From Takashimella koratensis (Eukaryota > Basidiomycota > Tremellomycetes > Trichosporonales > Tetragoniomycetaceae), in the NCBI GenBank assembly GCA_003116875.1, contig BCKT01000003.1, forward strand, positions 313,143-377,142: DNA of 64,000 bases. The letters run 5' to 3'. The stretch's first letter is position 1, and each line of letters begins with the position of its first letter. Of the stretch, positions 17,734-49,870 are shown one piece after another. The notes beneath the pieces were generated by a model. It saw only the letters and a list, made by a program, of their open reading frames with translations. It ran no database searches and was not told the DNA's origin. The position numbers were made by a program, and so were the translations under genes.

Positions 17734-17979
17734 ATGGGCGCGTACAAGTACCTCTCCGAGCTCTACACCAAGAAGCAGTCGGACGTTCTCCAGTTCGTCT
17801 CCCGTGTTCGATGCTGGGAGTACCGACAGCTCCCGATCATTCACCGTGCTTCTCGTCCTTCTCGCCCCGACAAGGCTCGCCGTCTCGGATACAAGGCCAA
17901 GCAGGGCTACGTTATCTACCGAATTCGCGTTCGCAGGGGTAACCGCAAGAAGCCCGTCCCCAAGGGTGCCACCTACGGC

Positions 17980-18013
<34 letters not shown>

Positions 18014-18433: not shown

Positions 18434-18470
<37 letters not shown>

Positions 18471-23562: not shown

Positions 23563-24094
23563 GGTGGATGGAAGCGGTGAGGATGGGAGGGGATGAGGAG
23601 AGGATGAGTGAGTGGTAGGTGGATGGAGGTGGACAAAGGCGATGGAAGCCAGGGGGATGACGTCGCATGGCGGGCGGGTAGAAGGGTGTGATGGATGGGA
23701 ATTTGGGGGACTGCAGAAACCATTATTTCTCAACGCCACTGGGACGAAGCGGTCAAGCTCCGAGAGGATGGGGTCGGGTGGATGTTGTGGGTACTTGTTG
23801 GGGATGAACTCAGTAGCTGAGCCTCTGCTCTCCCTCCCCAGAGCGACAGCGCGAGATCTCGCTCGCCATGATCAGCTTGGGCGAGATGAAAGGTTGGTTC
23901 GGCCGAATGGTCAAGGTAGCTGGGCAGGGTGTCGTGTGGTGAGGTGTTCTTGAGTGAAAGGATCACTGAGAGGTGGGCCAGGATGAGGTAGATGGTGTTG
24001 GGCTGCGAAGTCCCTTGGGGTTTAAATTTATACCAGCGGCAAATCACACTGCATATCCCTCACATTACTCTTGCGTACTCACGCACTCACCGAC
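23563..24094. promoter_or_regulatory. Divergent promoter, dehydrogenase / orphan gene
   Basis: Intergenic region of about 530 bp. A clear AT-rich TATA-type element (TTTAAATTTATA, 24021-24032) lies some 65 bp upstream of the orphan gene's start. No other gene is seen. Confidence 0.5.
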
Positions 24095-24985
24095 ATGTTT
24101 GCTCACGAGAACGACAACTCTCCATTCCAAGTAGTAGACAACGAAATGTCCTCGTTCGATTGGGACTGGGAACCATACGTGCGCTGTCTTTACGTGAGTA
24201 AGAGTAAGTGAGCAAAGTAAGCTGAGATGCATACAGTTCCCGCCTTGGCCCGACGATGAGGTTGAAAGTATACCCAGGACCAACTCGCGTCTTGATGAAT
24301 ACAAGGAAGAGGAAGGCATACCAACGGCGTGGGAAATGTCAGATGAGTCGGAGATGTGCACCCCGGTGTTGCCAGAAGTGGAAGACACGACGGTAAGTGC
24401 TTATGATGACTAAGGTACGGCAGTCTCAGAAGAATTGACGAGATTCAGAAATGGTTGAACGTGTTGGTGGAGAGATTAGAAGACGGTACACTGCCGTCCT
24501 CAACACCGAGCTACCTCGACGAGGAGAAAACACCAGCGGAGAGTTCAACGGTCGACAAAGACTACGACAGCGACAGTGATCAGGGTCCTGGAGCGCTGGA
24601 AGGTACTTACCAAGGTTCAGTGGATTTCGACTTGTGCGAGACTACGGAAAATCCGAATCAGCCCCTCGATTTGGGGACTCAGATTACAACCCAAGTTGAT
24701 ACCACCTGCATCACCGTCGTCCCATACATCAAGGAAAGATCACTTACTACGGAAAATCGGAACCAGTCCCTCGATTTGGTGACTGAGATAACAACCCAAG
24801 TCGACTCCACCTGCATCACCGTCGTCCCATACATCAAGGAAGAATCAGTCTCATACATCAAGGAAGAATCACCCCAATTTACATTGCAAGAGATGAAAAT
24901 TAACCCCAGGAGGATGAAGGAAACCCAACTGAGATGGTATCAGTCGTCTTTGTCGACACCCAAAAAACCCCACGTGCTACGCTGA
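24095..24985 (+). CDS. Orphan acidic protein with duplicated segment, probably frameshifted
   Basis: Unrecognised gene. Exons 24095-24178, 24237-24392 and 24449-24985 join in frame to 258 residues. The product is acidic, with Trp/Asp-rich N-terminal parts (FDWDWEPY, PPWPDDEV). A direct repeat of about 105 nt (24641-24745 and 24746-24850) encodes two near-identical units with TCITVVPYIKE. The open frame stops at 24983-24985. One base out of frame, directly after the A6C4 run at about 24961-24970, the sequence continues to 25091 with a C-x8-C-x2-C-x6-C module (core SCAKCTYIHATC) that matches the end of the next gene (core ACARCTYFGTWC). I therefore suspect a one-base indel, either real or a homopolymer error. 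No function can be assigned. Confidence 0.5.
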
Positions 24986-25436
24986 CCAGGGCGGGCAATC
25001 ATGCGCAAAGTGCACGTACATCCACGCGACGTGCACTGCTGCCTGGAACAGAAGGACTCGTGTAGCTACACAAGATGTACCGGAAGTATGAGTTTGCAAC
25101 GATGCAAGGATGACACTTGGACGGTAGCGCTTGGTGTACAGTCCTTTGTGTTCAATGACATTGGTTGGCAATGACGTTGATTGCGAAGAACAAAGATCTG
25201 GAAGGCGTGCTCACAGATCTCTGGGCAAGCCAAGGACACTGATTTCAGAAGATAATGAACGGAAGGAGTAGGGTAAGGCGTGAGAAAAGGAGAGGTCAAG
25301 TGGGGTTGACACTCAGTAGACTTGATCAAACTCACGCGGACCCCGAGTGAAAAATACTCAACATTCTCTATTACCATATTCATCTTTGTCAACCATTTAC
25401 CGCCATTTTCGCTTCCAAGTCTCTTTCAAACCGGAC
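24986..25436. other. Out-of-frame Cys-module remnant and orphan promoter
   Basis: Bases 24986-25091 contain the out-of-frame continuation of the preceding gene's Cys-rich module. The remaining 345 bp carries no gene I can support and presumably promotes the next orphan gene. Confidence 0.4.
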
Positions 25437-26326
25437 ATGTTTATAACTCGAACTGAGAGGAGTGAGGTCGGTGATGCCAAGCCTCTCGGCGCATCATCTC
25501 AAAATTACGTCGAGCCTGTTGCCTGGGTCCCCCACGATGCTTTCCGAAACCAGCTCTATGTAAGTGTAGGTCATGTATTTCCAATTTCGAATCACTGATG
25601 AATCTACTTGACTGGGCCAATATCCAGTCGAGTTGTCCATTTACTCTTTACAGCCGGAACAGGATTTTTGGGCGCGGGTACTGCCGGACGGCGACACACG
25701 GGGAGTTACGAAGCCGTGGACAGAACTCACCTGCACAGGAATGGTCGGTGGAGTCGGACGAGGAGTTATTCACAAAGCCAAGCGCCCCTACGCCTCCACC
25801 CGTCGTGCCGCCAGCCACCACAGCGACCCGCCCGCGTTTTCCGCTTGCACCCTCGTCTAAATCTTCGAGAGAGAGGAAATTCTCAACAGAAATTACAATC
25901 CCTAGAGAAACGACTCTGCTTCCTAATGCCCCGGAGATGTCAAGTGTACCCGATCGTTCTCGACGTTACAATTTGGGCTGGCCTGCGTTTCGTGAAATGG
26001 TCTTGGAGAGCAAGATTGGCACGAATATCGTTCAGCTGATGGAATCTTCCCTTGAAATCAAAGTCAACACACGCGTAAGCTTGTCGGCTTGGATCGGCAT
26101 TTGCTGATGTATAATACATTAGATGATATCCCGATACACTTACTCGGCTGAGGAGATTTGGGGAAATGCTGTGCGGACATTCGAGGAGTGTTGTAAGAAG
26201 TGCATCAAATCCAAGGAGACGAAAGGAGAGTGCTTGCGTGGGTCGAAAGGATACGCGTGCGCCAGGTGTACCTACTTCGGAACATGGTGCTCAAAGGGAA
26301 CGAAGAAGAGACCTCCACAAGGCTAA
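25437..26326 (+). CDS. Orphan protein with C-terminal Zn2Cys6-like Cys cluster
   Basis: Unrecognised gene. A consistent model is exons 25437-25559, 25633-25677, 25739-26074 and 26123-26326, giving 235 residues; the second acceptor (25632 versus 25627) is uncertain. The middle is Pro/Thr-rich (SAPTPPPVVPPATT). It is followed by a helical stretch (NLGWPAFREMVLESKIGTNI). The C-terminus has six Cys in the pattern C-x2-C-x9-C-x8-C-x2-C-x6-C, from FEECCKKC to ACARCTYFGTWCSKG. The second half matches the spacing of fungal Zn2Cys6 clusters; the first half has x9 where x6 is usual. A C-terminal zinc-binding or DNA-binding role is possible but unproven. The upstream orphan gene shares the last four Cys. 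Confidence 0.6.
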
Positions 26327-26749
26327 TACCGAAGTCGATTGGTGAGACAACTCTCGCTTCGGTTTTCTCTGCTCCCCATCATAAAGGGCTCAAAAGTTGA
26401 GCCGAAACGCGCCTTCCACCGCGACGCTCTCTGATCAACAGTCTTCACACTGTTCACATGTATGTTAAGAGCAACTGGTTGGCAACTAGTGTACTGTACT
26501 GAGTGTGCGATGTAGCGGTGGCTACTTGATCGTACTATCGTCATCAATCTATCACTGTATAGGGTGGCTCAAGTAGGTGTCGTTGCACTTGGTTGAACCT
26601 CGAAATGGATGGCTATGCACAATGTCTACTGCTGCTCAAGAACACCGATCATAATGTTTTCGCTGTAGTGTGTGGTAATTTTACAGACACAGATAGGTAG
26701 TCATTTCGTCATGAAGTCATAAACAAGCGGGCCTGGGAACGAATTTACC
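26327..26749. other. Convergent 3' region
   Basis: Gap of about 420 bp between the orphan gene and the kinase-like gene on the other strand. Nothing recognisable is seen. Confidence 0.4.
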
Positions 26750-29157
26750 TCACACACCGAGCAGCTCCTTCACCTCTGTCATCTCCGAAATCAAGTCTTC
26801 GTCGGCCGCGTTAATTCTCGATCGTCCAAAATCAATAAGTCGAACCCCGTTTCCGTCGGCCGATCGTCTTATATGACGAATGGCGATGTCGCCATGAAGG
26901 ACGTTGCATGCGTGTATGCGCGCGTACGCCCTGATGACCGCGGCCCTAAACCAGTGAGAAAGGATCAGCAAACGAGTAGACGAACGAAATGTGATAGGAA
27001 AGATCGCGGGCTATCACCACCTTCCGCCAATCGCCTTTTATCCACCACCTCTAATACATGAGGGTTCATCTCCATTCGTCCGATGTCTCACTCAGATTTC
27101 CAGCGTTGTTAGGATTCTTTACTCACTTGTCCTCGTCTGATAGTTGTTTCGGGTCACCAAGTTTGGCACAAACGGGTTCATCGACTTTCTCCAGCAGTGT
27201 CACGAGAACTCCGCAGCGCAAAGGGCAGTGGCACGACGCATTCAGTGTACCCCGGAAGGTCCCGATAAACCAGGGAACAACGACCCCTTGCAGATCCTGC
27301 ATTGCGCTGTACGCTGCGATCTCAGCGTCCCACTCGGATCTAGCTCGCCGACACGGCTGGATCCTCTCGTCGCCACTCTCGTCGGCGCTGTCGCTGTCGC
27401 TGTTGTTGTCCTTGTCGCTGGACCAACCGCCCTCCTCCCCCTCATCGTCCACGTTTCCACTCGCAGACGCCGGGCTGCCCATTTCCACATCGACGTCGGC
27501 GGGTCCCGCCACAGCCTCCCCCTCATCGCTGCATACGCTCTCGTCGTCGTCATCTTGAGAAACATGAACATCTGAGGGAATGCAGATCTTTGCGACCGCT
27601 TTGTTCCTGAATAGATCTTCTCGCGATAACCAGACCTCGTACACGTCGGCAACGGCGCCCTTGCCCAAATAACGACTGAGCTCCACACCCAGCTCGTCGT
27701 CATCCAAAACGTCCCATCCAGGACGCGGTGGAGTCGTTGGAGGCGACGAAGAAGGGGAGGGCTTCCTGTAAACGACACCGTTCACCTTAGAATCGAAAAG
27801 AGACGGTGACATGAGCCAATAACGACCGGCAATCTGCAGATCCCCCGAGGCAACGGACAAGCGGAGGCGAAACCTCTCTTTGACTGGGGCCTGCGCCTAG
27901 AGCGGATCAGCCTATGTATAACGTAGGTGACACAGCAATAACTCGAGACTGTTAGATGTACTTACATTTTCCGGGGTCACCCGGCCATGAATTCCCTCAA
28001 CAGACTGCCAAGGTGTTGGCGGACCTAATGACGACACATCCGAGGAGGTTGACGTAGTTGAGCTCTGCAATTCCTGGCGCGTGCGAGCCTTCTTCGTCTT
28101 CCCTTTCTGCGTCCCCTCATTTGCCGACTTCGTCTTCACATTCCGCCTCTTCTTCTCGTTCGCCGATTCCTCCGTCTTCGCTATCGATCTTGCATGGATA
28201 TCGTGCATGATCTTGGACAAGGCGCGGTCTGGTGGCCTAACTTTTCCGTCGATCCCCAGAGCAATGAGGAACTTGAGATCGTTCGCCTCGGAGACGACCT
28301 GAGGAAGCCGGTAAATGAGGCGATCAGTAACGCCGAAAGTAAAATCATTATTCAGGCGCATCGTAGCCATACACTCGTATGTGGAGAGGGAGATGGTCTC
28401 GCAACGGTAGAAGATAACTTCTTCGACAACCTGCTCGAGATCAGCGGTCGATCACATGTCAAGGACACAGATGCTGAAACCTCACCTGGCAAAGCATGCG
28501 TCGGACCGTGGTCCGCTCACCGTCCTTGAATCCCGGTGTTTCGTCCATGATCCATCCTTGGCCATCGGAATAGCCAAGGGCGAAACCCTCACCCGACATT
28601 AGGCTGAGAAGGTTCGCGTACTCCTCGGCTAGCAATACGCGGTCCATCTTAAGCTCCATCAGATGCCTGATGGACCGAGACGCGTCGCTTCGACGGAAGA
28701 CGAAGTCGGTGGCTCCCGATTCGGAGTTGTTGTTGTTTCCTCGCCATTTTCCACAAGGAGCCAAGTTAGGAACGAAGAGGTTGGACTTCAAGACCTTATT
28801 CGCCAGACGACAGAGGCTAGTCCCCATGGTAACCTGCACGTCCGACTCGAGGTTGTGCGGCTCCTGAGCATCATCGTAAATGTCTTCTATCAGATCGGAG
28901 AACGATACGGGCAGGGCTGCGGCCCCATTGAGACACTGCAGGCGATTTAAGATGCCAGGGAGCAAATCCGAATCGACTTTAAAGACAACATCTCGTTCAA
29001 TGGCGTGAAAAACTCTTCGCGTGCGAGCTCCCGCTTCGCGCGTGCCTCGACTGGTTGAAGCAGTTTCGCCTGGGTAAGCGTCGTAGTTTATACTTGGCAG
29101 GCGGTAAGTGTCGAGAAACTCGCCTAGAGTACGATACCGGGGCTGGGGCGGTTCCAT
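26750..29157 (-). CDS. Kinase-like protein, paralogue A (catalytic residues kept)
   Basis: Member of a four-copy kinase-like family in this window. Exons 28486-29157, 27966-28430, 27127-27896 and 26750-26945 (minus) give 700 residues. The N-terminal signature is TLGEFLDTYRLPSINYD, followed by a long non-kinase region with a Lys-rich stretch. The kinase fold starts near YLGKGAVADVYEV, with the Lys in AVAKIC. A Ser/Asp/Glu-rich insert follows, then ARIHACNVLHGDIAIRHIRR (catalytic HGD) and RLIDFGRSR (metal-binding Asp). The position five after the catalytic Asp is His instead of the usual Asn, as in paralogues B and D. It resembles fungal FunK1/phosphotransferase-like kinases, so real kinase activity is plausible. 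It is divergent from the ankyrin gene with 221 bp between. The last intron is 181 nt. Confidence 0.75.
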
Positions 29158-29378
29158 GGTGGTGGCGACGAATAATGAGTCGATGATGGGATGATGAGGA
29201 GAGACAAAGTTGATGTTGACGAGGTGACGAGTTGCCGCTCAGCCGGTCGCTACTTGTGTCCACACCTGGGTTTACTGCTCGCCACACCCATTCTGTCCGC
29301 CCTCATCGCATTCATCCACCATCGCGACCATCCACCTAGTCACCTACTCACCACCACCGCCATAGCATCCTAGCACCC

Positions 29379-30430
29379 ATGCCGCCTCCAGCAAGATCAG
29401 CGCCCCCACCTCCGCCTCCTGAACAAGTTGACGGCGCGTCACAAAGTACGTGTCGTCCTGACTGGACCTGAGTCGGGATCCACCGTGACAGGTATCGAAT
29501 GCTGATCTTGTACAAATACAGGCGAACGATTGTTGGGCGCGGCCAAGGACGATAACGAGGAGCTTGCACTAGAGGTGTTGGAGACGATTGAGGATGTCAA
29601 TTTTGCCGATGGGTAAGTGCGGAGAGGTGGATTTGAGCTGACGCAGCAGGTTGGGTAATACTGGTGAGTGACGATGGACATTATTCTTTGTCGTACTAAC
29701 CTCGCTGCCTAAGCTTTACACTACGCGTGAGTTCATCTCAAATTTTGATGATGAAGCGATCCGACTGACCTTGTCGTCTCCTCTCGTAGCGTGCTGAAAG
29801 CGTCGACTGACGTGCTCGAGCATATTCTCAACCACGACTCGTGTGATGTGAGCCCGCGCAACCGGTTGGCCGGGGATACGCCGTTGCACATTGCTGTTCG
29901 GCAAAAATGGGAAGATCATGAGGGTGTCAGGCTGTACCTTGGTGCGTGGGGCGAAATTCTCGGTGTCTGGCTCCGCCCCGATGCTCTGTGATCGCTTCTC
30001 CCTCAAGTCAAGCTGACATGGCGATAACAGTTTCCATCCTCCTTGAAGCAGGCGCAGACACCATGTAAGTCATCTCAAGCGTGGTTTCGACCTTGCTGAC
30101 ATTCGCAGGATTAAGAACAGGCATGGACAGCGACCTATCGACTTGCTCCCGGATACGCCCGAGCCCGGATCCGACGACGACCAGGTCCGGGCGGCGATCA
30201 GGAAATCTGAGGCCGAGGCGATGGTCGCGGATAGCGGTGATGTCGTGGATGGTGAGTAGCGCGGTGAAGGGGTTGATGGTTATAGTGGTTGTGGTCATGT
30301 TCAAAGGGGTAATGGAATGAGAGTCGGGGTCGCAAGGGGATTGGCGAGCTACCGTGACCAGACTTGCTGACAACGTGCAGAGGACAACGACGTGATCGAC
30401 CCGGACGATGTCGCGTCCGACGACGACTAG
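29379..30430 (+). CDS. Small ankyrin-repeat protein
   Basis: Short acidic ankyrin protein, spread over several small exons between the ATG at 29379 and the TAG at 30428-30430. The product starts with a Pro-rich leader (ARSAPPPPPPEQVDG). Repeats follow: ERLLGAAKDDNEELALEVLE, the split GNTALHYA, and GDTPLHIAVRQKW, then VSILLEAGADTM and KNRHGQRPIDLLPD. The tail is Asp-rich (DEDNDVIDPDDVASDDD). The layout resembles fungal one-domain ankyrin proteins such as Yar1-type chaperones, but I cannot assign it. It shares a compact bidirectional promoter with kinase-like paralogue A. Some splice boundaries, for example around 29700 and 30030, were read only approximately. Confidence 0.72.
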
Positions 30431-30621
30431 GGAGTCAAGTGGGTGGACCACCCAGGAGTGAAAGGGTTATCTTGTTCTTCTTTGTCATTATCGCTACCAG
30501 TTGTTCGCGTGCCACATGCATGCTCATTGCGTGTTCACCAATAAAAGATGACACCGAGAACTGACCAAAGAAAGACACGTTGTCAAAGATGAGAGAGACA
30601 ATAGTTCACGATCAAATTGGG

Positions 30622-33600
30622 TTAACGGAAACCGCCGACACGACCGGCGAGGGCGAACCATGCGGCTAGGCGCCATGCTAATGTTACGCAGAGGAGGATG
30701 GCCATGTAGATTCTCGTATCCATTTGGGACCAGTTGAACAAAGCGAGCCTGGAAAATGGGGGATGAGTCAGCGATTACCTAGAGCACAAAACGCGCCACT
30801 CACATCTGTGCACCGTTCTGCGCAACACAAGCGCCCGAAGCGACGTCTGCGGTGGAACAGCTGAAAGTGACACCTTGAAATGCATTGATCACTTGGATCC
30901 TCACCGCGGCTAAAATCGGACATCAACACTTCACAGAAATCTTGAGTCGACTCACGCTTGACACATGATATCCAAGCGAGACCCGCGAGCCAGCTAGCCA
31001 CAGACAATGAGATGATCCCGCTGATCTGACCCGCGATTGATAAGATCGTCGATACCACGCTACGAGGTGTTAGCAGCGGCTCTTCATTCACGAGTCACAC
31101 TTACGTCACGGTCAAACCCTCAATCGGGATCCACGCCCCAAAGATAATAGACGCGCTCTCGCCCATATTCACCAGCGCCCATACGGATATCGCGTACTCG
31201 AAGAATATCCTCGCGGATGTGGGTAACCCCACCCCAACGTTCATCTACATCTTAGCAATGACCGAATCCGTGACCTCGAAGCACCACTCACAATCGCGGC
31301 GAACGCAAACGCCCCAAGGAGTTCCGCCCATATCTCAATAGCCGAGTAGGCAATCAAGAAGGTGGCTGGGGAATACCTTGCAGCACTTTTGGCTTCGTGG
31401 AAGTAGAGGTTTCGATCGGGTGGGTAAATTGACATTGCGTTGAGTAAGCCGACGAAAGAGGTGGACGCTGTGGACTCGATCGTGATACCGATAAAGTCTT
31501 GCGCGCCTAGGAATTAGCTCGGTCAGGGAGTGACATACCTGATGCGCCATAGGATAAGCGTTGGAAGAAGAGGATAAAAAGGCCACCAAGGATTGGGACT
31601 TGGATTAATCGGGAGAAGAAGATCTATTGTCAGTGGGGCTTGACTCGCATTTACCTCTTTCTGCCTCCAGAGGTTCCTCCACATTCTCTCGACGACAACA
31701 GGTAGAGCCACGCGCATGGACCGAGCTTTGAGCTTGGTCGTTGGCTGAGTCGAAGCGGTGGTTTCGGCAACATCCACGCTGTGTTTCCCCCTCCACGCAT
31801 CTGTGAGCGAGGTGACTCGAGCAACGGAACGGTCGTGTGTTGACGCTCGGGGATCTACCGAGACGAGGTCGAGTAAGTGATCGGCTGGGTTGAAGAACTC
31901 GGATGGCATTGGGTGGCCAATCGAGGTGAAATAGTCGACCGCGTCGGCGCGTTTGCCCGTGTACTGAGGTTAGCGGGTTCAAACACAAACTTACAGCGAC
32001 GACACCGCCTTTGGCCAAGAGGGTGACACTGTCGGCCAGTTGCCAGATGTCACTGCGGGGTTGGTGGATCGTTGCTGCTCTTAGCCCAGTACAGTTTCGA
32101 CCCACCAATGACGGTCCGACCGGTTGCTGCGATATCTCGTAACACCTGCATGACGCTGAGAGCGATACTGCTATCCAGTCCCGAGGTCGGTTCGTCCACT
32201 AATAACACTGCCGGGTCGTTGATCACTGCGATTAGCAAAGTCAAGGTTGGCCCTACTTTGTACAGCAAGTGAGAGTCGACGCTTCTCTCCACCCGAGATG
32301 CCCTTGAGTAAAGGTCCGCCGACAGGCAGATCCGCACAATCCTTGAGACCCAGCATGAGTAAGACCGTTTCCGCGCGGGCAATCTTTTGCTGCCGCGGCA
32401 TATCGTCGGGAAGTCGTAACACCGCCGCGTATCTGAGAGTCTCGCGCACTGTCAGGGACGGGAGGTGCCAGTCGTCTTCTTGCTCCACAAAAGCGACGTG
32501 GGTGGATGAAGTGGCCGAGTTGGAGAGAATGATCTCGCCTTCGCGTCGGAAAGTGGCCAGGGGACCTGGTTGGAGGCTGCGATCCGCGAGGAGCTGTAAA
32601 AGTGTGGACTGAGGTTAGCTAGGTCTTGGATTAACTTACTTTACCCGCTCCCGATGGTCCCTGGGGTTAGCTTGTTCATGCGGATGCTCACTAGAATGGC
32701 GGATACTTGACCCGCTAATGTCAGCTTGATCAATAACATGCTCACCTTTAAAGTCTAAAGAGATATCATCGAGAATGATCTTGGTACCGCTCTGAACCAT
32801 GCCTCTGCCTTGTCGTTGCCATTTGAACGTCAAGTTGCGCACCTGCCGTCAGCTTCGAAACACTGGCACCTACAGAAACGTCGATGCGGTGGCGCTTGAC
32901 GTGGCTGTCGAGGACATCGGTCTGCTTGCCGCGGTGGTGCGAGTCGATCTCGGATGCGTGCTGGAGTTAGCTAGCTCAAGAAGAGACGTACCTTGACACC
33001 GCCGGAAAAGTTGAGCTAAAGTCAGCCTTGTCAGATTTGTACCCACCCAGAGTGCGAAACAGGCCAAGGCGTATTCGACCAAGGCAAAACCGATGAGACC
33101 GCCATAGTATGCGCCGACGTTGACACCGTAATCAATACCAAGACCATTGAGGACGTTGTTGCCGATACACTGGGCGGTATTCCCTTCGGACCCCGCGGGG
33201 CAGGCAAAGATACGGTCCTTGAATTGCAGCGCAGCGACGATTCCTGGGGTCAGTGAAGTTGATGAGTACTTACGGAAAGAGTAGAAGAATGGGCTTATCC
33301 ATCGGATCCATGAAACATAAACCGGTACGTGCGTGCTGAGGTCAGCGGGGCTAGATTGTAACTTACACAAGGAAACCGCTGCTCATGCTTGGGGTTAGCG
33401 AACGTCGACAGAGGAACGTACAGTTGGAACAAGTTGAGCGCGTTACCGATCTGAGATGCTGCGGCAAAATTTTTCACCAATGACGCCTGGGGTTAGTGAG
33501 GCAAGCGGTTCACTTACCGAGAGGAGACTGCATCCTTGGACGCAGAACTGCACGAGCATGGTCTGGGGTCAGCGACGCCAATCAAATCCCTACCGAGGCA

Positions 33601-35841
33601 ATTGTGGAGAACAACCGGGCGGCGGTGTCTTCCGGTCGCAATCCAGCGATATAATACACCAAGATGATATAGAGCGTTGGCGAGAGGATACTCGGCATGA
33701 GGAAAGAGATCCACTCGGAGATGATATACGGTACGACATCCTGGAGTTAGTTGGGCTTGATCGAAGCTTACGTATAGGTGGTCCTGTGGTCAGCTAGTAC
33801 TAAAGGTAGACGTACCTCTCTCTCTCGGTCAAAGATGATGAGATCGTTGCAGTATTTGTAAATCCCTGGGGTTAAGCAGAACTGTGACAGACTTACAAAA
33901 CACCTGCTGTAGATAGAAGACGCCTGTTGTTAGCCGGTCCTCAATCAGACTCACCTGGCACAAGCTGGAACGAGAGATTTTTCAAACTCTGGATTCCTGT
34001 AGGCGTCTATCGTCAGCTTAGTCAACATCGCGCTTACCTCTGGAAGCTCATAATAGGTCATGCCGATGATGACGCCTAGGATAATACCTTGGCCGAGAAG
34101 ACCCATGATTACTGGCCAGTTTCTATACACGTTTCTATGGGATCGAGAAGTGAGGACGAAGATTTGTTTGAAGAAACCAGGTCGACGGATCTCGCCCTCG
34201 CCTTGGGAGTGAGCGGAAATGGCACGCTCGAGCTGGTCAGTTACAGCGGATCGGGTAGGGACAAGGGGTGTCTCCTCGTCGACTTCTTTCAGGTTCGATT
34301 CGTCGGTGTCAACGGTACGTGATCGCCACGCACGGACGAGCGCGGTGACTCGTTCTCGAGAGATTTCCTCGTTCTCCGTGGTTCGGTTATCCACGGTTGA
34401 TACGTCGATAAGGAAATCTGCCGTCAGCTAGGTCGAGCTTGGACTAACCTAATGGGTTGACACCGCGCTGCACATCGTGGCCGAGGGAAGAGAACCAGCC
34501 GAGGCATTCGCGGCGGAGTCCAGAGTAGACGACTTGGCCCTTGGAGAGAAGCGTGATGCGATCGAACAAGGGGAAGGCATCGGATCGGGGTGCGTGGATG
34601 GAGAGGATGACAGTCCGGCCACGTCGAGCCAGTTGGGAGAGGGTAAGGAGGAGCAGATAGGATGTGAATGCGTCTGGGTTTTAGTTATTGGTCAACTTGT
34701 GACTTACCAAGACCACTAGTTGGTTCGTCTAGTATGAGAACGCTAGGAAGGGTGACTAAAACACAGCCGATGGACAACCGTCGTTTCTCTCCACCCGAGA
34801 TACCTTTACGCAAGGGCCCGCCGACGACTGTATCCGCAGCGTCTCGAAGACCTAATTCATCAATGGTTTGCTCGACGATCTCGGTGATCGCCTCGCGCGA
34901 GAGGGAAGTAGGGAGTCGAAGTCGAGCGGCATAAGTCAGTGTCTCCCGAACTACATAGTTGGTTAGCGGCTTCAACATACCCAAAGACGTACCGGTCAAA
35001 CACTCTACGAGGTAATCTTGTTGCCTAACAAACCCGATCCTTCGCTTCGCTTCATCCTTGCCAAGTTTACGTGGCTCATTCGATCCCGTGATCGCAGCAA
35101 GTCGTCGGCGAGACGAATGGTAAGCTACCTCACCCGTCTCAACGGGTAGTGAGAGTCGGTGCGCTACGGCATTGAGGAGTGTCGTTTTGCCTGATCCCGA
35201 CCCACCGAGACTGATATTGTCAGCATTGCAATTGAATAAGAAACTTACATCGCAAGGACTTCGCCAGAGCGACATTCACATTCGACAGCGTCAAGGATCC
35301 AGCGCTTCTTCTTCTCTTCATCTTCAAGTTCGACTTTCTTCTTTTGCATGAACCTGGATGCCGGATCGCCGATGATCAGTATTGCCTTACGTCCACCGAT
35401 CGCATACTGCTCGCCCTAGACCTCACGCTTTCACCCCACCCCTTCATACCGTCTCTTGATCCCATGCGCAAACACCACCCCATCGCACTCTCAGCACACA
35501 TGCACTCACGATGGCATCTTGAACGACTTGCCCACGGGTACAGCGACTGACAAATCCTTCACGACCAGATCGAACGGTGGTGGTGGGGGGAGGTTGAGCA
35601 GTGCATTCACCCTCCCTTCATTCACTGTATCTGTCTCCCCTGGTTCCTCCCCATCGACACTCGGTTTCTCGATCACCGACATTTCCACCGTTTCGTTCTC
35701 CACCCCCAGTGTATCGGGTGGATGAGAAGACCCCACGGCCGATGCGTCAGTGTAATGGGAAGACCCCTTGATCGGCTCGCCGAGGCTGATGAGAGCCGCC
35801 GCGGACCGACCGGATCCCTCTGCGCTGGGCCCGACCGACAT
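30622..35841 (-). CDS. Full-size ABCG transporter with many 31-nt introns
   Basis: ATP-binding cassette exporter of the G family, arranged NBD-TMD-NBD-TMD as in fungal PDR-type pumps; about 1300 residues from the ATG at 35839-35841 to the TAA at 30622-30624. NBD1 has Walker A GGSGSGKTTLLNAV, signature ISGGEKRRLSIG and Walker B LILDEPTSGL. NBD2 has Walker A GPSGAGKSTLLQLLADR, signature ISGGEKRRLSLAVQ and Walker B VLLVDEPTSGLDSS; the H-loop is ATIHQPRSD. Both ATP sites look intact, unlike many PDR pumps whose first site is degenerate. Hydrophobic segments follow each NBD. The substrate is unknown. The gene has about 29 introns. Eighteen of those I measured are exactly 31 nt and several others 30-34 nt; exons can be as small as 12, 21 and 23 nt. 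No single open frame covers more than a fragment. Confidence 0.88.
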
Positions 35842-36058
35842 TGCTGGGTGGTCGATGTGGTATAAGTCAGGTGTTAGAAGTCGAACGATGAGCTCCAAAA
35901 GTAAATAAGGAAAAACGGGGATGGGATGGGCAGGGACCACATGGACGCGGAGACGGGGACCAAAGCAAGGCGTGCCTGAAAGGACCCCTTTGACTGAATT
36001 CGGCCTTATGCATATCCGCATCGACCCACCGCCCGGTTCATCCGGGTACATCTCAACT
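35842..36058. other. Short spacer, ABCG start to kinase-like B 3' end
   Basis: About 217 bp holding the ABCG promoter and the end of the downstream-oriented kinase-like gene on the same strand. Nothing else is seen. Confidence 0.4.
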
Positions 36059-38014
36059 CTACCAATTCTCCACCATTCTCTCAACCTCGTCCATCTCCTT
36101 GGCCAGTTCTATCTTATCTTCGACCGAGGCATGATCGAAATCGATCAAACGGATCGTGCCATCTGCAGCTCGGCGGATGTGCGACTTGCGAAGACTACGG
36201 TGTCTAATCCCCAGCTGGTGAATCTTCTGGTAGCACTCGAGGATCTCGAGCCTTTCATTAGCCCACGTCAACAACAGACTCACTTTGTCTTCTCATCAAG
36301 ACCGCATCCTTCGGGAGCGACCATCGGCCCGCCATCCTCCATCAGCATCGCGTTGAGATACCTTGAGTACGTAGGGTCCGAGCAAAAGACGTCCCCTTCG
36401 AAATGACCCAGAATCCTTGAGACGCATACCCCCTGGAGCGACTTGAGTCGGTTGTACATGGCCCGCTCATTGTGAATGTCCCTTTCGGCTCGATACAATG
36501 ATCGCTTGCAGATCTCGTGGAGGTCATCGACGACACAGATCTTGAGAACGGCAGTGGTGAGTCCGCCAAAGAGGTCGGGGCGGGAGATGGAGACTCGGTA
36601 GGCATCGCTCTGGTGTCCTGTCCCGATGTACTCGAGGAGGTGGATCCCGAGGTGTTTATGGCGGAGATGGGCCCACCATGACGGACTTGAGGGTGATGGG
36701 GGAGTGGGACGACATGCAAAGGGGTTGGCAAAACCGGAGATGTTCGAGTCGAAGAGAGACAAACAGGTTACCCAATATCTACCGGCGACTTGGAGTTCTG
36801 GTTTGTCGATCGTGATACAGAGTTGAAGACGAGTGGACTTGGTCGTTTTGATCTCCAGCTTGGTCAGATCGGGCATGGTCTCGATGCGGGTCGTTCTCGG
36901 GGTCCCTGAACCGACCGTCGCGTCGAGACTTGACTCTTGCGGGCGTGGAACAAGGGGGGAATCCAAGTACTCGACGGTGGTTTGCTGCTCTCTCGCCACC
37001 TTGGTCGAGACTCTTGCCCTAACCCTTTCTTCCCACATCCCGTCCACCTGGCGCTTCATATCGCCCAACATGGTCTCAAAGACGGATCGCTGTTTTGGTT
37101 CGTCCTCAGCAGCCGCGCGAATACCCATGGCGATGAGGAGCTGGAACCAGTCCGGGTCGCGATCACGATCCATCCTGTTTGAGCTTGGCGAATGGATGTT
37201 GTCGCCGTTATGGCCCGGGTCGCGCAAGTAACGTGGGGAGAGGGTGAGCCTGTACGGAGCAGACATCTCGAGATGGACGGCGTACTCATAGTCGAGGTAA
37301 ATACCTTGGTTGCAGAGGTGAAAGAACATGTTGTCGATCACCTAGAGTCAGCGGAGACGGGTGTTGACTTACCGGAAGGAGCGGGTCGTTTGGATTTGTC
37401 TGAGAGAGGTGAAAGTGTCGCGGTTCAAGGGAGAGGATCGTACCTCCCCTGTCGATCTGGACAAAGTGATGAATCTCAGTCGCATGGGAGCTTGGTAGGT
37501 TGGTGTGGTTGACTAGACTACACACTGAGCTTGCTCCACCGAGGTATGGGTCCGTATGACAATGCGTGTGTCGGGGGACTCTTTCTTCGGTACCTTCCTC
37601 AAAGAATCGTCGGACGAGGAGTGCAGCGGAATCAGCCGCGAATCGACCGCCTGTGAGTCTCAAGGATTGGGGCCATGGCCAGGTCGGGACTTGGGTGAGG
37701 TCGAGCTGGTCGAGCCGGTCGTGGACCCAGGACGGGGTGGAAGGGGTCGGTTTGTCAATGCTCAGTGGGTGAACGAGGGAATGGAGGAGACGTCGGGTAC
37801 GGTGATAAGTTCTGGGTTGAGATTTGGGGTCGTGCGGCTGCGAGAATTTGGGGATAGGGAGGCGGAAGGTGTTAAGGTAAGAGCCAAGAGTGAGGACATC
37901 TGGGTTGAGGGAGGTGGGGGTGGGCGTGTTCAAGAGCTGAGGGTCGACAGGAGGGGAGGGAGGTTGATCTGAGTGGGTGGGAGGGAGGTCGAGTGGTGAT
38001 GTGGTCTCGCTCAT
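36059..38014 (-). CDS. Kinase-like protein, paralogue B (HRD Asp replaced)
   Basis: Second kinase-like paralogue. Exons 37373-38014, 36284-37341 and 36059-36251 (minus) give 630 residues; the introns are 31 and 32 nt. The N-terminal signature LGSYLNTFRLPIPKF and the intron-flanking block VIDNMFFHLCNQGIYLDYEY align with paralogues A, C and D. The P-loop is YIGTGHQSDAYRV and the Lys is kept in AVLKIC. The catalytic loop reads GIRHRSLRKSHIRR, so the Asp expected after His-Arg is Ser, while IRLIDFDHAS keeps the metal-binding Asp. This suggests weak or absent phosphotransfer, although other atypical kinases use alternative residues. It is tandem with paralogue C, its closest relative by block similarity. 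Confidence 0.75.
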
Positions 38015-38339
38015 GATCCTCAAGGTGGCAAGATGGAGGAAGAGTAGTTGAAAGAAAGAGAGTGGAGAACAGAAGGGGGTCGGGTGAGAGTGAGCAGGGA
38101 AGGAGGGGGAGGTGGGGATGGGATGAGGGAGAGGAAGAGGATCGAAGAAGAACAACATTGATCCGGTGATGGTTGATTGATCGATCGCATGTGTATGTCA
38201 CCACACATACGCACACACACATGCTCCTACTCTACATTCAACGACAAGCTACAATGGTTCATGCGGCTATCTCATTACATGGCTACGACTGCACTTATAC
38301 AAGTCACTACCCTTCACCCATGTCCATCCTCTTACCAAG
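38015..38339. promoter_or_regulatory. Upstream region of paralogue B
   Basis: Contains the block GATGGTTGATTGATCGATC (38167-38185) and a short CA/CACA-rich stretch (about 38205-38221). The same block lies upstream of paralogue C at about 40549-40567, next to a longer CA run. It is probably a duplicated promoter element. Confidence 0.55.
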
Positions 38340-40355
38340 TCACCAAGAGTCTAGCATCCCCGTAACCTGCTCCATTTCTCGTTCAAAAGCCTTTGGATCC
38401 GACTCGTTTTTCGCCTGGTCAAAATTGATAAGTCGGATCGTCCCGTCTGCTGCTCGTCGAATGCGCTCTGGGCAAATCCTCCCATGGCATATCCCAAGTT
38501 TGTGGATCTGTTCGTAGCATGCGATGATCTCGTTCCGGATGATCAGCTCGACCTCAACTACTGACCTACTTTGTTGCCTGTTTCAAAGGTACTCCGCGTG
38601 GCGAGACCATGTCCTCGGCGTCTTCCAAGAGCATCGCATCGATAGCCGTGGCGCTCGCTCGGCCGTGGAACAGCTCCCCCTCGAAAAAACCAAGGACTCG
38701 GGGCATGCATTGCCCTTGTAACGATTTGAGTCTTTCGTAAATGGTCCGCTCGTTTCGGATATCAATGATGACTCGATCCCGTTCGCGAGGAGTACGTTTG
38801 AGAGGGTATATGTCGACGAGATCGTCGACGATGCAGGTCTGAAGGACAGCCCTGGTGAGTCCTCCAAAGAGTATTGGGCGACAGACGGCGACTCGCCACA
38901 CGTCGCTGTGGTGACCAGTGCCGAGGTAATTCAGAATATGAAGGCCAATCTCTTTCGGTTGGAGTTTGTGCCACCAAGCCGGCGTGGCGGGCTGAGGAAC
39001 GGGAGGTGGAGGCATGAGTTTTTTCGTGATAACTGAGAAAGGGTTTGATTCGTGCTTAGTCGTGGTAGACTTGGATTTGGTGGTAAAGGGAAGGGGGATA
39101 CCGGAGATGGTGGAGTGGAAGAGTGAAAGACACGTGAGCCAGGATCTGCCGACGACTTGGAGCCTGGGATGGTCAACGGTGATGCGGAGTCGGTGAAGCG
39201 GGCCGACCGAATCCGACCTCTTCTTTCCTTTGGATACGGACGTTGTCACCGTTGACATTGGATCTTGACTCCTATCGAACGCAACGTCTATCCCGCCCGA
39301 CTCGCGTTCGCCCGCGCTTTGCTCGTACTTTTTCTCCCACATCTTATCCATTTGGTCTTTCATCTCTTTCAACATATCGAACAAGAATTTCTTCTCCGCC
39401 GGTTGGTTTCCCGACTTTGACCGCTGTATTGCGCTGCCCTTGAAAAGCATCAATTGGAACCAGTCGATCTCCCGATCTCGGCTGATCCGGGTGTTGTCCA
39501 CGATAACCGGTGTTGCTATGTCGAGACCTTGCTCTGGATCACGCAAGAAGGTAGGTGAGATGATGAGCTCGTGATGTCCCGTAAGCGAAAGCACGACGCC
39601 CGTTTCAAAGTCGGTATAAATCGCACTCCCGCAACCGTGGAAGAACATATTGTCCAAAGCCTAAGGTCAGCCATGAATTGTCAATGTGGACTTGCCCTCA
39701 AAAACGGGTCGAACCTTGAATCCTCGGACAGCTGCATCTCGGGTTCGTCCCATGCTAATACATGACGACCCCAATCGAGCTCGAGAAAGTGATTGACCAC
39801 CTTGACGGGGCGGCTGAGCGGAGGTGGGTTTTCTTCAAGTTCTCCACAAACAAAGCTTGCTCCGCCTAGATACGGGTCGCTTGTCGAATTATCGTACCCG
39901 ATTCGATTTCGGGGCCTGAAAACGGGGTCGAGGTAGTAATGATAGAGAGATTCGAGGCTATCCACTCCAGAGTCCAACTCTGGCCAATGCGGTCTGAAGA
40001 GGAGGTCGAGTTGGTCGAGATAGTCCCGGAGGAGAGAGTTGGCTTGCTCGGTTGACTTGCAGACAATGATCGATTGGGCGAAAGAGTGGAGAAGGCGAAG
40101 CGTTCGGGAGTAGGGTTTGGGTTGGGCGGTCGGGTGTCGAGCCCGGGTTCGTGTATCGAGAGGTGGGAGGCGTTTGGAGTTGAGCCACTCGCCGATGGTC
40201 AAGTTGGAGTAGGCGGTCGTAGGGGGGAAAGTGCGCTGGGTAGGGAAGCTGCGAGGACAAGTCAGGTAGTGCAGGGGAGAGTTGGAGAGAGGGTTGTTGG
40301 GTGGGGCGGAGACGTTGGAGGTGGAGGGGTGAGAGGAGTGAGAAGGGCCGCTCAT
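38340..40355 (-). CDS. Kinase-like protein, paralogue C (predicted pseudokinase)
   Basis: Third paralogue. Exons 39696-40355, 38570-39660 and 38340-38535 (minus) give 648 residues in one frame. The first intron (39661-39695) is GC-AG. The second (38536-38569, 34 nt) must end in CG instead of AG to keep the aligned frame. Family blocks are TIGEWLNSKRLPPLD and ALDNMFFHGCGSAIYTDFE. The P-loop YLGTGHHSDVWRV is followed by AVLQTC, where paralogue B has AVLKIC, so the ATP-anchoring Lys is Gln. The catalytic loop is GICHGRICPERIRR (Asp replaced by Arg), and RLINFDQAK replaces the metal-binding Asp by Asn. All three catalytic positions are lost while the frame stays open. It is either a structural pseudokinase or an early pseudogene with a damaged acceptor. 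Confidence 0.7.
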
Positions 40356-40579
40356 GGTGAGAGACGGGAGGAGGACGGAGGGTAGAAGGTGGTGTGGGAG
40401 AGGGGGGTGGGGGAATGGGGGTGGGGATGAGGAGGTGAGTGGGGAGAGGTAGAGAGTGGAGATGGGAAGAGAGAGGGTTATGGACAGCGATGGTGAGGAA
40501 GAGGATGATGCTGACAAGAACAAGTTGAGATGACGCGGTGATGACTGATGGTTGATTGATCGATCACTGTGTGTGTCAT

Positions 40580-40586
40580 ACACACA

Positions 40587-40625
<39 letters not shown>
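40580..40625. repeat. (CA)n microsatellite
   Basis: An almost pure CA dinucleotide run lies about 225-270 bp upstream of the paralogue C start codon. A shorter equivalent lies upstream of paralogue B. Confidence 0.9.
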
Positions 40626-40682
40626 CACTGTTGTACTCGGCGTATCATTCCCAAGTGACAAAAGTCTCATCCCACCCTCTAC

Positions 40683-40994
40683 TCAATTACGGTGAATGCA
40701 CTCCTTACTGGCTACTACGCAAGTAGCATACTCAACCACTTGCCTCCTTGACTGCCCAAGATTTGAGGCGGGTTCGTTTCCGAGTGCTTCTTGGGTGAGC
40801 CCAAAGATGGGTTTGGAGAGGCGTGAGACGAGGTGGTCGCGGAGGGTGGTTTGGGCGGCGGGAGGGAGCGGAGGGTCGGTGTTAGATAGGTAGCGTCGGG
40901 GGAGCATCGATCGGGTCTGGAGGATGAGGGCTGGAGGGTCGGGAGGGTCGGGAGGGTCGGGAGGGTCGGGATGGTTCCGGGGTCGAGGTGTCAC
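40683..40994 (-). CDS. Possible small unrecognised gene
   Basis: An open frame whose downstream half (SNTDPPLPPAAQTTLRDHLV and SKPIFGLTQEALGNEP) has GC-rich third codon positions and looks coding. Its upstream end is just the translated tandem repeat (Asp-Pro-Pro), so the true start is doubtful. A second candidate exon begins at an ATG at about 41099 on minus (MKRSSPRHRNSS and HPSESYWAAQ) and could be spliced across the repeat, but I could not find a junction in phase. No family is recognised. Confidence 0.3.
   Translation of the reverse strand: MTPRPRNHPDPPDPPDPPDPPALILQTRSMLPRRYLSNTDPPLPPAAQTTLRDHLVSRLSKPIFGLTQEALGNEPASNLGQSRRQVVEYATCVVASKECIHRN
40934..40972 (+). repeat. Tandem GGGAGGGTC repeat, G-quadruplex-capable
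   Basis: About four direct copies of a 10-bp unit (GGGAGGGTCG register) on the plus strand. The runs of three G with 1-2 base loops meet the usual G-quadruplex pattern. Confidence 0.75.
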
Positions 40995-41628
40995 TGTGCG
41001 GCCCAGTAGGACTCGGAGGGGTGGGCAGCGGCAGTCGGCCCACGGGGTGTCGGTATGGTCCGAGAGGAGTTACGATGACGAGGGGAAGAGCGTTTCATAA
41101 CGCGTCGAGTTGATAATGATTTCTCATTGCAAAGATTACAGTCTACTCACTGTTCCTTGTCTCCAGTATCCTCGAGGGCTCTTACCGTGCTGACCACCAG
41201 TCTCTCGTCGCTGCTCGCCATGCTGCTCGGCATGCTGCATCCATCCCTTCCCCTGCCATACACCCCCATGCTCGGCGGCAAAGTGCCACTTTCAGCCTCG
41301 TCGATTTTTGTCACCCTGCAACCCATCCTCCCTACCCATTTTCACGTCCTTCTCACCATTTCACCATTTCACCATCACCCATCCTACCCTCCCCCTCTCA
41401 TCCATCCACCCGTCCTCTCCCTCCCACTCTCTCGGCGACACCCCGCGCGCGCTTCAGACGACCAAGGATAGCCTCGTAGCCCAGAAACAGTCGTTTTTCA
41501 TTCCGGATTTTCTCGCCGTCGCGTTGTCGCCACCGCCCTCGACTCAACCCTCCTCTCTCTCTCAACCCACCCACCTGCCCTCCCACCCTTCCTACCCGCC
41601 TTTAACCCCCCCTCCCCCCCTCCCAACC

Positions 41629-42736
41629 ATGTCCGGCCTCGCGTTACCCTCATCCTCGGCGCAGAGAGAAAACGACGACGGCCGGCTCGTCGAGGCTTCG
41701 GGTTCGCAGACGTATGGGAAATCAGGAGGACCACCGGCAAGACCGCCAGCGAGCGTGCCAGAGATCACCGTGGTCAATGGGATTGTCCCTGTGCTTCAGT
41801 GGGTATTGGCGTGGGCTGGGTGGGACGGGAGGGGAAGAGGGAGGAAGGGAGAGGGAGAGGGAGAGGGAGAGGGTGAGGGCGGGGTGGTCAGGCGAGAGGA
41901 CGGTCGGGGGAGAGTAAAGGTTGGGAAGGGGCCCTGAGGGGTTGAGTCTACTCGATGTCTCCTACTGACTTTCCAGAAACATCGTCGCTACGGTCAACCT
42001 CGAATGCCGACTCGACCTCAAAACGATTGCCTTACACGCTCGTAACGCCGAATACAACCCAAAGGTAAGTCCCACCCGTTCACCCCGCTAAAACCCTAGC
42101 GATTCGCCGCTGTAGTCATGCGTATTCGTGACCCCAAAACCACCGCGCTCATCTTCGCGTCGGGTAAGATGGTCGTGACAGGTGCGAAATCTGAAGATGA
42201 TTCTCGACTCGCTTCACGTAAATACGCACGTATCATTCAAAAGCTTGGGTTTGATGCGAAATTCGCAGAATTCAAGATTCAGAATATCGTCGGATCATGC
42301 GATGTCAAGTTCCCAATCAGGTTGGAAGGTTTGGCCTTCAGTCACGGTCAATTCAGCTCGTATGAGCCAGAGGTGGGTTGAGACTAGAGGTGAAGCTAAT
42401 GAAAGCTCTTCCCCGGTTTGATTTATCGAATGATCAAACCAAAAGTCGTCTTGCTCATCTTCGTCTCGGGCAAGATTGTGCTTACGGGTGCAAAAGTTCG
42501 CGAAGAGATTTATACCGCGTTCAATCAGATTTACTCGGTTCTTGTTGGTGAGTGCAGGTGGGGGAGCGGTCGGGTGGGTGGTGTGGGTGATGTGGATGGT
42601 TGGGCAGGTGGGGAGCGGTGGGGTGGGTGGTGGGCAGAGGAGAGGTGAGGAAGAAGGGTGAAGGGGTGTAGCGTAGTCGGTGGCTCTACCGCTTGACCCG
42701 CGCTAACACACTGCAGAGTTCCGAAAAGAGGCATAG
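41629..42736 (+). CDS. SPT15: TATA-binding protein
   Basis: General transcription factor nucleating TFIID, and shared by the Pol I and Pol III machineries. Exons 41629-41798, 41977-42064, 42100-42372, 42406-42547 and 42717-42736 join to 230 residues. A Ser/Pro-rich N-terminus of about 55 residues precedes the saddle, made of two direct repeats. Repeat 1 is [20 protein letters not shown] to [13 protein letters not shown]; repeat 2 is [18 protein letters not shown] to the end. Characteristic blocks [12 protein letters not shown] and [12 protein letters not shown] occupy equivalent positions in each repeat. The last exon encodes only EFRKEA. The first intron contains a purine-rich GGGAGA repeat near 41850-41877. 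The gene converges on a RING protein gene. Confidence 0.96.
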
Positions 42737-42927
42737 AAGGGGGAAGGGCTTTACTTTCGTGGTCTCTATCAGTCGTCTCAGTGGCTGTCCCAACGTTCGT
42801 CGATTCGTCAACGAGTCGTCCAATCCGTTCCCTCCATATCTCCATTGGCTGGTTTATTCATTGTTGTGTTGTCTATGGATCATGAGTTTCATGGACTTTT
42901 CTGGGCTCAAGCTCCACTGATGCTTAA

Positions 42928-44738: not shown

Positions 44739-45188
44739 GATTGACGAATTCGGTCGTATCCCAAAATCGATGAAAAAAACAAGGAATGTTGAAAGAACTG
44801 AAAAAGATGGAAAGTAATTCAAGAATATGGTCGAGCCAAACGCCCGAGTCAACTTTCACGGCCAATGCCAAGATATGCATGTCTTCATATGTCTTCTAAT
44901 CTGACAGCGCCAACCATCGTCCCGACAACAATTAACGGGTATAGGCTATCTCTTTGCTCTGCGCGTCGCCCCAGGACTGACCTCGCACGGGTAGCGTGGA
45001 TCGGCATGCGCAATTCCAGACACTGTCCAGAGCGCTACTCACGCGTCCTCTCACTACTAGCCTCTGGCCAGCTCCCCTCCCTTGACCGCGCTTTCGCCTA
45101 GCCGTCCTCGCCGCCAGCCCTTGGCCGCCCTCACCCCCTCACTCGCCTCACCCGCCGTCGCCTCCGCGCACCTCGCTTCGCTCGGCGC
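44739..45188. other. Intergenic, mitochondrial carrier 3' end to RING gene 5' end
   Basis: About 450 bp holding the RING gene promoter. No gene or repeat is evident. Confidence 0.4.
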
Positions 45189-47163: not shown

Positions 47164-47300
47164 GAGCGTGGGTTAGGTACAAGGGGGAACGAAAAATTCT
47201 CCCCAGAGGTAACGGTGAGGGGGAAGGGGGGTATGGACAAGGAATGGGGTTCGATGCGGTCGTAATCGTCGTGGTCGGCGTGTAGGCGGCGATGTAGGTG

Positions 47301-47331
<31 letters not shown>

Positions 47332-49814: not shown

Positions 49815-49870
<56 letters not shown>

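Follow-up and report, generated by a model that had tools for sequence, protein, structure and literature searches.

The gene at positions 30622–35841 of a 64,000-nucleotide stretch of Takashimella koratensis DNA (contig BCKT01000003.1; the window in what follows) raises the question of why so many of its introns share the same very small size. A reading of the letters alone (the sequence-only reading) had described an ABCG transporter gene with about 29 introns, 18 of them exactly 31 nucleotides (nt) long, and had offered two causes: a hard lower size limit, or a burst of introner-type insertions whose copies later diverged. The survey reported here covered 264 kb in long pieces and 60 kb as 1.5-kb probes. 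There are two intron classes in this sequence. The short introns (mini introns) occupy chromosomal blocks in the sampled part, and those of their sites that can be tested are common to relatives or to related genes. The mini introns are probably old spliceosomal introns that were contracted, block by block, to a second minimal geometry. Coordinates without a contig label are positions in the window, which lies on contig C3.

The ABCG gene and its introns

The predicted spliced protein is 65–67% identical to orthologues from Kwoniella and Cryptococcus, with the best matches in Kwoniella (67%). No near-identical protein was present among the 120 matches listed, and a single ABCG orthologue was found in the genome. 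An upstream exon reaching 36013 was added by the gene finder and is poorly supported. We count about 30 introns, close to the earlier figure, of which 23 belong to the short class: five measure 30, 32, 32, 34 and 34 nt, and the other 18 measure 31 nt. All 18 listed introns read as had been described, being 31 nt long, on the minus strand and bounded by GT and AG. The branch motif CTRAC occupies nt 22–26 in 15 of the 18, and the other three carry CTAAG, CTAAT and CTTAAC (Table 1). The sampled sequence contains 30 introns of 31 nt (thirty-one-mers). When 29 of these, including 17 from the ABCG gene, were aligned, every one had an A at nt 25, as does the intron omitted from the alignment (32075).

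Removal of these introns restores the conserved ABCG frame, as had been proposed. Sixteen of the 18 splice junctions are free of gaps in at least 26 of 30–31 orthologues. The junction at 33741 is gap-free in 18 of 31 because the 12-nt exon next to it is passed over in other annotations, and the junction at 33336 is gap-free in 0 of 29 because the adjoining border, that of the intron at 33388–33421, was misplaced by the gene finder. Removal of a 46-nt intron at 30910–30955, the border of which was corrected by eye, restores a segment that is read in orthologues as VQIINESVGLIFKC. With GT-AG ends, a donor and a CTRAY-type branch consensus, and a restored frame, the mini introns would qualify as U2-type spliceosomal introns.

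A second intron geometry

A home-made semi-Markov gene finder, which favored no intron length within 20–160 nt and no branch-to-acceptor gap within 0–20 nt, predicted 91 genes and 408 introns in the 264 kb. The peak near 31 nt that the sequence-only reading implied is present and sharp, with 30, 21 and 17 introns of 31, 32 and 33 nt, respectively; 20 of these 68 belong to the ABCG gene alone. The spectrum rises abruptly at 31 nt, only 8 of the 408 introns being shorter, and the branch A of the mini introns is mostly found at nt 25 or 26. Both observations agree with the hard lower size limit that had been suggested.

The same spacing is seen when gene models are left aside. Across the 264 kb, CTRAC-N2-YAG is the commonest arrangement (60 occurrences), compared with 15–19 at each of N0, N1, N3 and N4 and 26–46 at N5–N8. 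The distance from the donor to the end of CTRAC-N2-YAG is 31–35 nt in 41 cases and 36–58 nt in none. Strong signals mark 258 introns. The 64 of these that measure at most 36 nt all have a gap of 2 (54) or 3 (10) nt between the branch motif and the acceptor triplet. For the 194 longer introns the gap is 2–3 nt in two and 5–9 nt in 134. Because a short donor-branch distance is tied to a gap of 2–3 nt and a longer distance to a larger gap, the step between the two classes is discrete. In the 74 mini introns defined by a length of 29–36 nt and a gap of 2–3 nt, the branch A lies at nt 24–29, most often at nt 25 (30 introns) or nt 26 (22 introns). This set omits 15 of the 408 introns, which are at most 36 nt long, have other gaps and all lack strong signals. 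What had been described as a fixed branch position represents a second geometry, more than a shortened form of the ordinary one. GC-AG ends seem compatible with the class, since the mini intron at 39661–39695 has a GC donor. In-frame stops are found in 14 of the 17 mini introns with a length divisible by three and in 24 of the 57 others (p 0.005); we do not claim selection from this excess, because the gene finder would read stop-free introns of such lengths as exon.

Uniform size is also what a burst of introner-type insertions would leave, and some introner families have a median length as low as 30 nt (PMC9860276; this and the other papers cited are represented by parts of their text). Over their 14 interior letters the thirty-one-mers are 31% identical, compared with 25% expected from composition, an excess that is due to the make-up of the columns. 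The closest pair agrees at 10 of the 14 letters, as the columns predict, and within-column shuffles match this in 57% of trials (P 0.57). A search of interiors and long shared runs found no near-copies among the 76 mini introns of the sampled sequence. On the side of a burst, exact runs of at least 7 letters are common to 21 interior pairs, compared with 11.9 in shuffles, and a weak T-T-G-A-C stretch lies 8–12 nt upstream of the mini branch A, of which ordinary introns show only a trace. This stretch would be a splicing element rather than the remnant of a common ancestor. The testable intron positions are shared with relatives or occupied by ordinary introns in related genes, and the mini introns replace ordinary ones, as described below. 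With no near-copies found as well, a burst of insertions is very unlikely to have produced the class.

Distribution in chromosomal blocks

The sequence-only reading placed the uniformity inside one gene, which proved too narrow, as the class fills chromosomal blocks. A relaxed mini-intron pattern gave 33 matches in the window, none in 1–28000 and 33 in 28001–64000, with 17 of them within 28001–36000; Markov sequence gave 2.1 per 64 kb. The border lies near 30.5 kb, between a gene ending at 30430, which has seven introns and no mini intron, and the ABCG gene. Among introns with strong signals, 64 of 95 are mini introns in mini-bearing blocks and 0 of 163 elsewhere, a contrast that is partly circular because the blocks were labelled after the mini introns had been seen. 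Under a looser definition (29–36 nt, gap up to 4 nt), 75 of the 140 introns inside blocks are mini-like, compared with 2 of the 268 outside. The one test free of the labelling shuffled whole genes among the blocks: the observed chi-square of 173 was matched in 0 of 5000 shuffles, the highest of which gave 168. A second clustering statistic, computed without the ABCG and myosin-I genes, which are the richest in mini introns, was likewise reached in 0 of 5000.

Blocks were also seen beyond the window. Over 20 loci of 10 kb, the pattern without gene models is absent from 15 and occurs once in L019, 17 times in L004, 12 times in L012 and three times each in L020 and L021. A matrix scan gave 15, 15, 3 and 4 matches in the four rich loci and 0–2 in each of the other 16. 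Probes on C3 beside the window found three mini introns at 385 kb and none at 280, 300, 400 and 420 kb; those at 450 and 480 kb had one each by pattern and none by matrix scan. On C8, mini introns are present at 20, 80 and 90 kb and in the locus at 100–110 kb, absent at 40 and 60 kb, and absent from all 22 probes between 115 and 540 kb. C2 has four at 90 kb, none at 115 kb and three at 130 kb.

Within the blocks, mini introns replace ordinary introns instead of adding to them. Each kb of coding sequence carries, on average, 0.70 strong ordinary introns and 1.44 mini introns in mini blocks, and 1.77 strong ordinary introns and no mini introns elsewhere; the density of all strong introns is 2.13 compared with 1.77. 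The ordinary introns in mini blocks are shorter than those elsewhere (median 56 versus 71 nt, p 0.008), and they retain the ordinary gap.

Several properties were considered as markers or causes of the blocks. There is no clear difference in GC content, which is 0.54–0.57 in the mini-rich 10-kb loci and 0.53–0.57 in the others. Compact intergenic space was rejected (p 0.30), as was gene function: accessory-looking genes, named by eye, have many mini introns in L012 and none in L019. Codon bias was also rejected, as the frequency of optimal codons does not separate the blocks (area under the curve (AUC) 0.50). Codon usage did not mark the blocks as foreign either; a leave-one-block-out classifier fails to transfer (AUC 0.22), and some codon shares differ slightly (GTC 0.58 versus 0.49). 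The gene for the TATA-binding protein (TBP; Pfam TBP), found in one copy in the genome, lies within the mini block of the window at 41629–42736.

Two architectures that alternate along contigs could point to an assembly chimera or a mixture of two fungi. The alternation occurs within contigs of Mb size, however, codon usage does not separate the blocks, and for three tested mini-block genes, TBP included, no second orthologue was found. An artifact of this kind is highly improbable.

Shared intron sites in relatives and related genes

Relatives were compared through their published protein models. The 12-nt exon of the ABCG gene encodes four residues, and precisely these are missing from 13 of 31 orthologue models. 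In P0022, a model from the Tremellales, the missing part corresponds exactly to the 21-nt exon, which encodes the Walker A heptapeptide, a motif that a working ABC protein can hardly do without. Model P0027 from C. deuterogattii lacks the exon between introns 32075 and 31964 together with two further residues. The T. mesenterica, N. encephala, C. deuterogattii and C. neoformans models depart from the conserved sequence and rejoin it at introns 33563, 33487, 33336 and 33244 or a few residues away. Over 31 orthologue rows, 23 of 96 break points fall within 2 amino acids of an ABCG intron; circular shifts gave a mean of 10.1, and 6 of 5000 were as high. This evidence covers about half of the ABCG sites and few other sites. 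Those ABCG sites that can be tested thus appear to be common to the Tremellales and hence old. Public ABC transporter models from several Tremellales (P0021, P0022, P0023, P0027 and P0028) look wrong at short introns or tiny exons.

The Cryptococcus, Tremella and Naematelia models fail at several sites as if the introns there were very short, which would also fit mini introns as the ancestral state, with ordinary introns re-expanded in other blocks. In C. neoformans, however, introns below 40 nt form a small population (PMC11913375). Re-expansion to gaps of 5–9 nt would moreover require insertions on both sides of the branch, intron after intron. We regard this direction of change as unlikely.

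Four related genes in the window, which we take to be FunK1-like kinases, show the same sites in two states. Gene 27123 lies in the mini-free part, and genes 36059, 38566 and 48172 lie in the mini-intron part. In Pfam the Pkinase match of 36059 is below threshold, and 48172 has no match. An alignment of the four (20–42% pairwise identity) reveals two intron positions in common. At the first, the intron is 55 nt in 27123, 31 nt in both 36059 and 48172, and 35 nt in 38566. At the second, it is 181 nt in 27123, 32 nt in 36059 and 31 nt in 48172. The closest pairs by identity are 36059 with 38566 (42%) and 27123 with 48172 (33%). As the gene with ordinary introns is closest to a gene with mini introns, it is the block, rather than the gene lineage, that the intron class tracks in this small sample.

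Probable contraction by blocks

Contraction of old introns to a second minimal geometry remains the explanation we consider probable. The minimal form would consist of a donor, a branch A at about nt 25–28, two or sometimes three bases, and the acceptor triplet, and the larger gaps, mostly of 5–9 nt, would go with longer donor-branch distances. The contraction step would couple a shortening of the donor-branch distance with a move of the acceptor to 2–3 nt from the branch motif. A steric limit on the donor-branch distance may set the floor. Most mini introns would then lie at or near the shortest distance that the spliceosome seems to accept, and lengths would therefore pile up at 31 nt. If contraction took place by chromosome block, the class would follow the neighborhood and not the gene family.

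Several points weigh against this reading, in addition to the circularity of the block labels. The direction of change is the contraction that we infer, the relatives being represented by protein models, and the removal of the mini introns in RNA is predicted from the DNA. The sequence surveyed is a small share of a genome of 25.1 Mb. The gene finder was seeded with the donor and branch motifs of the introns in the sequence-only reading, and its output was corrected by eye at five introns: three in ABCG, two of them at a border and one at the branch, and two in the related genes. Both mini-like introns outside the blocks, which are weak, lie in L015, and the matrix scan gave 7 matches in the other 16 loci, for a background of about 5 per 200 kb. 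No exact intron position is common to the ABCG gene and the ABCG paralogue on C1, or to the two ABCG halves, so the ABCG introns look younger than those duplications. At the second common site, gene 38566 (38530–38569) has a mini-like donor and branch and no plausible acceptor. This gene may be a pseudogene or contain a sequencing error.

Candidate causes of the blocks are an ancient exchange with a relative in which all introns had shrunk, and a regional deletion regime. In the first case the genome would be a mosaic, with mini blocks introgressed or hybridized from a relative with genome-wide contraction, and this is compatible with contraction as such. The sharp border between the genes at 30430 and 30622 fits a mosaic, as does the occurrence, on several contigs, of blocks that measure tens of kb, and one lineage changing genome-wide would be a simpler history than a series of regional changes. 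We could conceive of no more economical cause of the blocks than mosaic ancestry, and it is supported by no test made here. Codon usage, however, yields no classifier that transfers between blocks, and a search of the genome for second orthologues of ABCG, TBP and myosin-I found none; the absent codon signal and the single-copy genes are mildly against it. The mini-free Hsp78 shares its nearest named taxa (Kwoniella and Cryptococcus) with ABCG. In trees, Cryptotrichosporon is the partner (100/99 support) of the ABCG protein and of a pentatricopeptide repeat protein, both from the mini block of the window. Hsp78, the sole mini-free gene tried, had no Cryptotrichosporon among the 120 matches listed. 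We consider an introgressed mosaic possible rather than probable. The more specific proposal of two lineages, in which old introns were reset to the 31-nt form in some blocks and homologous ones are ordinary elsewhere, is doubtful; if true, intron geometry would mark the ancestry of chromosome segments.

Table 1. Features of the window discussed in the text, with strand and basis of assignment
Feature	Position	Strand	Basis
Mini-free part of window, 0/47 gene-finder introns mini	1..30500	.	one isolated matrix match near 6-8 kb
Mini-intron block, 38/69 gene-finder introns (29-36 nt, gap up to 4)	30501..64000	.	gene finder + pattern
ABCG gene, two ABC_tran + ABC2_membrane units, ~30 introns	30622..35841	-	Pfam on spliced protein; orthologue identity 65-67%
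Mini intron 32 nt	31507..31538	-	orthologue junctions
Mini intron 31 nt	31624..31654	-	sequence read + orthologue junctions
Mini intron 31 nt	31964..31994	-	sequence read + orthologue junctions
Mini intron 31 nt, branch CTAAG	32075..32105	-	sequence read + orthologue junctions
Mini intron 31 nt, branch CTAAT	32226..32256	-	sequence read + orthologue junctions
Mini intron 31 nt	32609..32639	-	sequence read + orthologue junctions
Exon 21 nt coding Walker A heptapeptide GPSGAGK	32640..32660	-	missing as unit from relative's model P0022
Mini intron 31 nt	32661..32691	-	sequence read + orthologue junctions
Mini intron 31 nt	32715..32745	-	sequence read + orthologue junctions
Mini intron 31 nt	32843..32873	-	sequence read + orthologue junctions
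Mini intron 31 nt	32961..32991	-	sequence read + orthologue junctions
Mini intron 31 nt	33016..33046	-	sequence read + orthologue junctions
Mini intron 30 nt	33244..33273	-	orthologue junctions
Mini intron 31 nt	33336..33366	-	sequence read; junction not gap-free
Mini intron 34 nt ending AAG	33388..33421	-	border by eye (gene finder 33379-33421); restores conserved LMSSGF
Mini intron 31 nt	33487..33517	-	sequence read + orthologue junctions
Mini intron 31 nt	33563..33593	-	sequence read + orthologue junctions
Mini intron 31 nt	33741..33771	-	sequence read; 18/31 junctions gap-free
Exon 12 nt (DHLY)	33772..33783	-	missing as unit from 13/31 orthologue models
Mini intron 32 nt	33784..33815	-	orthologue junctions
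Mini intron 31 nt, branch CTTAAC	33866..33896	-	sequence read + orthologue junctions
Mini intron 31 nt	33924..33954	-	sequence read + orthologue junctions
Mini intron 31 nt	34007..34037	-	sequence read + orthologue junctions
Mini intron 31 nt	34418..34448	-	sequence read + orthologue junctions
Mini intron 34 nt, branch CTAAA by eye (gene finder: other branch, gap 14)	34674..34707	-	orthologue junctions
Ordinary 181-nt intron, gene 27123, second site	26946..27126	-	by eye; gene finder ended gene here
Ordinary 55-nt intron, gene 27123, first site	28431..28485	-	alignment of related genes
32-nt intron, gene 36059, second site	36252..36283	-	alignment of related genes
31-nt intron, gene 36059, first site	37342..37372	-	alignment of related genes
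35-nt GC-AG mini intron, gene 38566, first site	39661..39695	-	by eye; gene finder gave 137 nt
31-nt intron, gene 48172, first site	48407..48437	+	alignment of related genes
31-nt intron, gene 48172, second site	49343..49373	+	alignment of related genes

Comparison with known systems

The nearest precedent for the mini-intron blocks is the region-bound BOC1 introns of Mamiellophyceae, found on chromosome 2 of Ostreococcus and on the big outlier chromosome of Bathycoccus and Micromonas (PMC3491373, PMC3879977, PMC2483917). In both systems, here for the sampled part, a short intron class is bound to a chromosomal region, and many positions are common to relatives, the figure reported for BOC1 being 73% between two Micromonas isolates. 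The BOC1 introns, as described in those extracts, lie in a region of lower GC content with a much higher intron density, and are 40–65 bp long and AT-rich with no branch motif detected. The mini introns, in contrast, show no clear GC difference and a similar total intron density, are 30–36 nt long, have a clear donor and a CTRAC-type branch at a fixed place, and occur in blocks on several contigs.

Yarrowia, Trichomonas and Giardia also have a branch motif that nearly touches the acceptor (PMC2483917, PMC13309789); for Yarrowia, one of these papers places it 2 nt before the AG and the other 1 nt before the acceptor motif. Those genomes are described as intron-poor with one spacing each, whereas here two spacings, tied to length, occur in an intron-rich genome. 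Introners and introner-like elements resemble the mini introns in that many are of one size (PMC9860276, PMC4457414), and differ from them in that the mini introns have no near-identical copies and occupy old positions where this can be tested.

The statement in the sequence-only reading that 31 nt is extremely short for fungi was right in part. In the related fungus C. neoformans introns of 20–40 nt occur, and the ultra-short ones depend on Prp16 (PMC11913375). They are described there as a small, poorly spliced group, whereas the mini introns make up most strong introns of whole blocks, and the extract of that paper does not mention a regional pattern. Orthologous introns hold their size between varieties of C. 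neoformans, 80% differing by less than 2 nt (PMC5006051). In the open-licence literature, judged by title and the start of the abstract, we found no report of a fungal intron class bound to a chromosomal region.

The system offers a natural experiment on minimal intron length: a single spliceosome seems to cope with two geometries, each of them fixed, and one cell provides homologous introns in either state for comparison. Intron size may be a property of the chromosomal block rather than of the genome, for which the literature searched holds a parallel only in one group of green algae. There is also a practical side, as public models of related fungi drop exons at these sites, in one case the ATP-binding loop of a transporter.

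Small nuclear RNA genes and tRNA

Two U2-like and two U6 genes were found in the genome, which could suggest that a second set of small nuclear RNAs serves the mini introns. The second U2-like gene (L023; G000:C3:1490635-1490810, minus strand; 73 bits) has its usual first part replaced and keeps the branch-pairing region with its GTAGTA stretch, and it is probably a 5'-truncated copy. The second U6 (L071; G000:C2:196600-197100, minus strand) has the same core as the intron-free U6 (L070) and carries an 85-nt GC-AG intron within the ACAGAGA box; U6 introns are known in fission yeast and some basidiomycetes. There is one match each for U5 and U4, and the ordinary introns in mini blocks retain the ordinary gap. 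A dedicated set of this kind is scarcely credible.

A short U2-like stretch in L022 (at about 1185) lies some 350 nt upstream of the same stretch in the complete U2, the two being little alike beyond the branch-pairing region. The Rfam U1 model gave no match in the whole genome, though U2, U4, U5 and U6 were found, and the U1 of Takashimella koratensis may have diverged. A tRNA at 54099–54182 of the window has an Rfam match of 42.6 bits and was missed by ARAGORN in its bacterial setting, perhaps owing to an intron.

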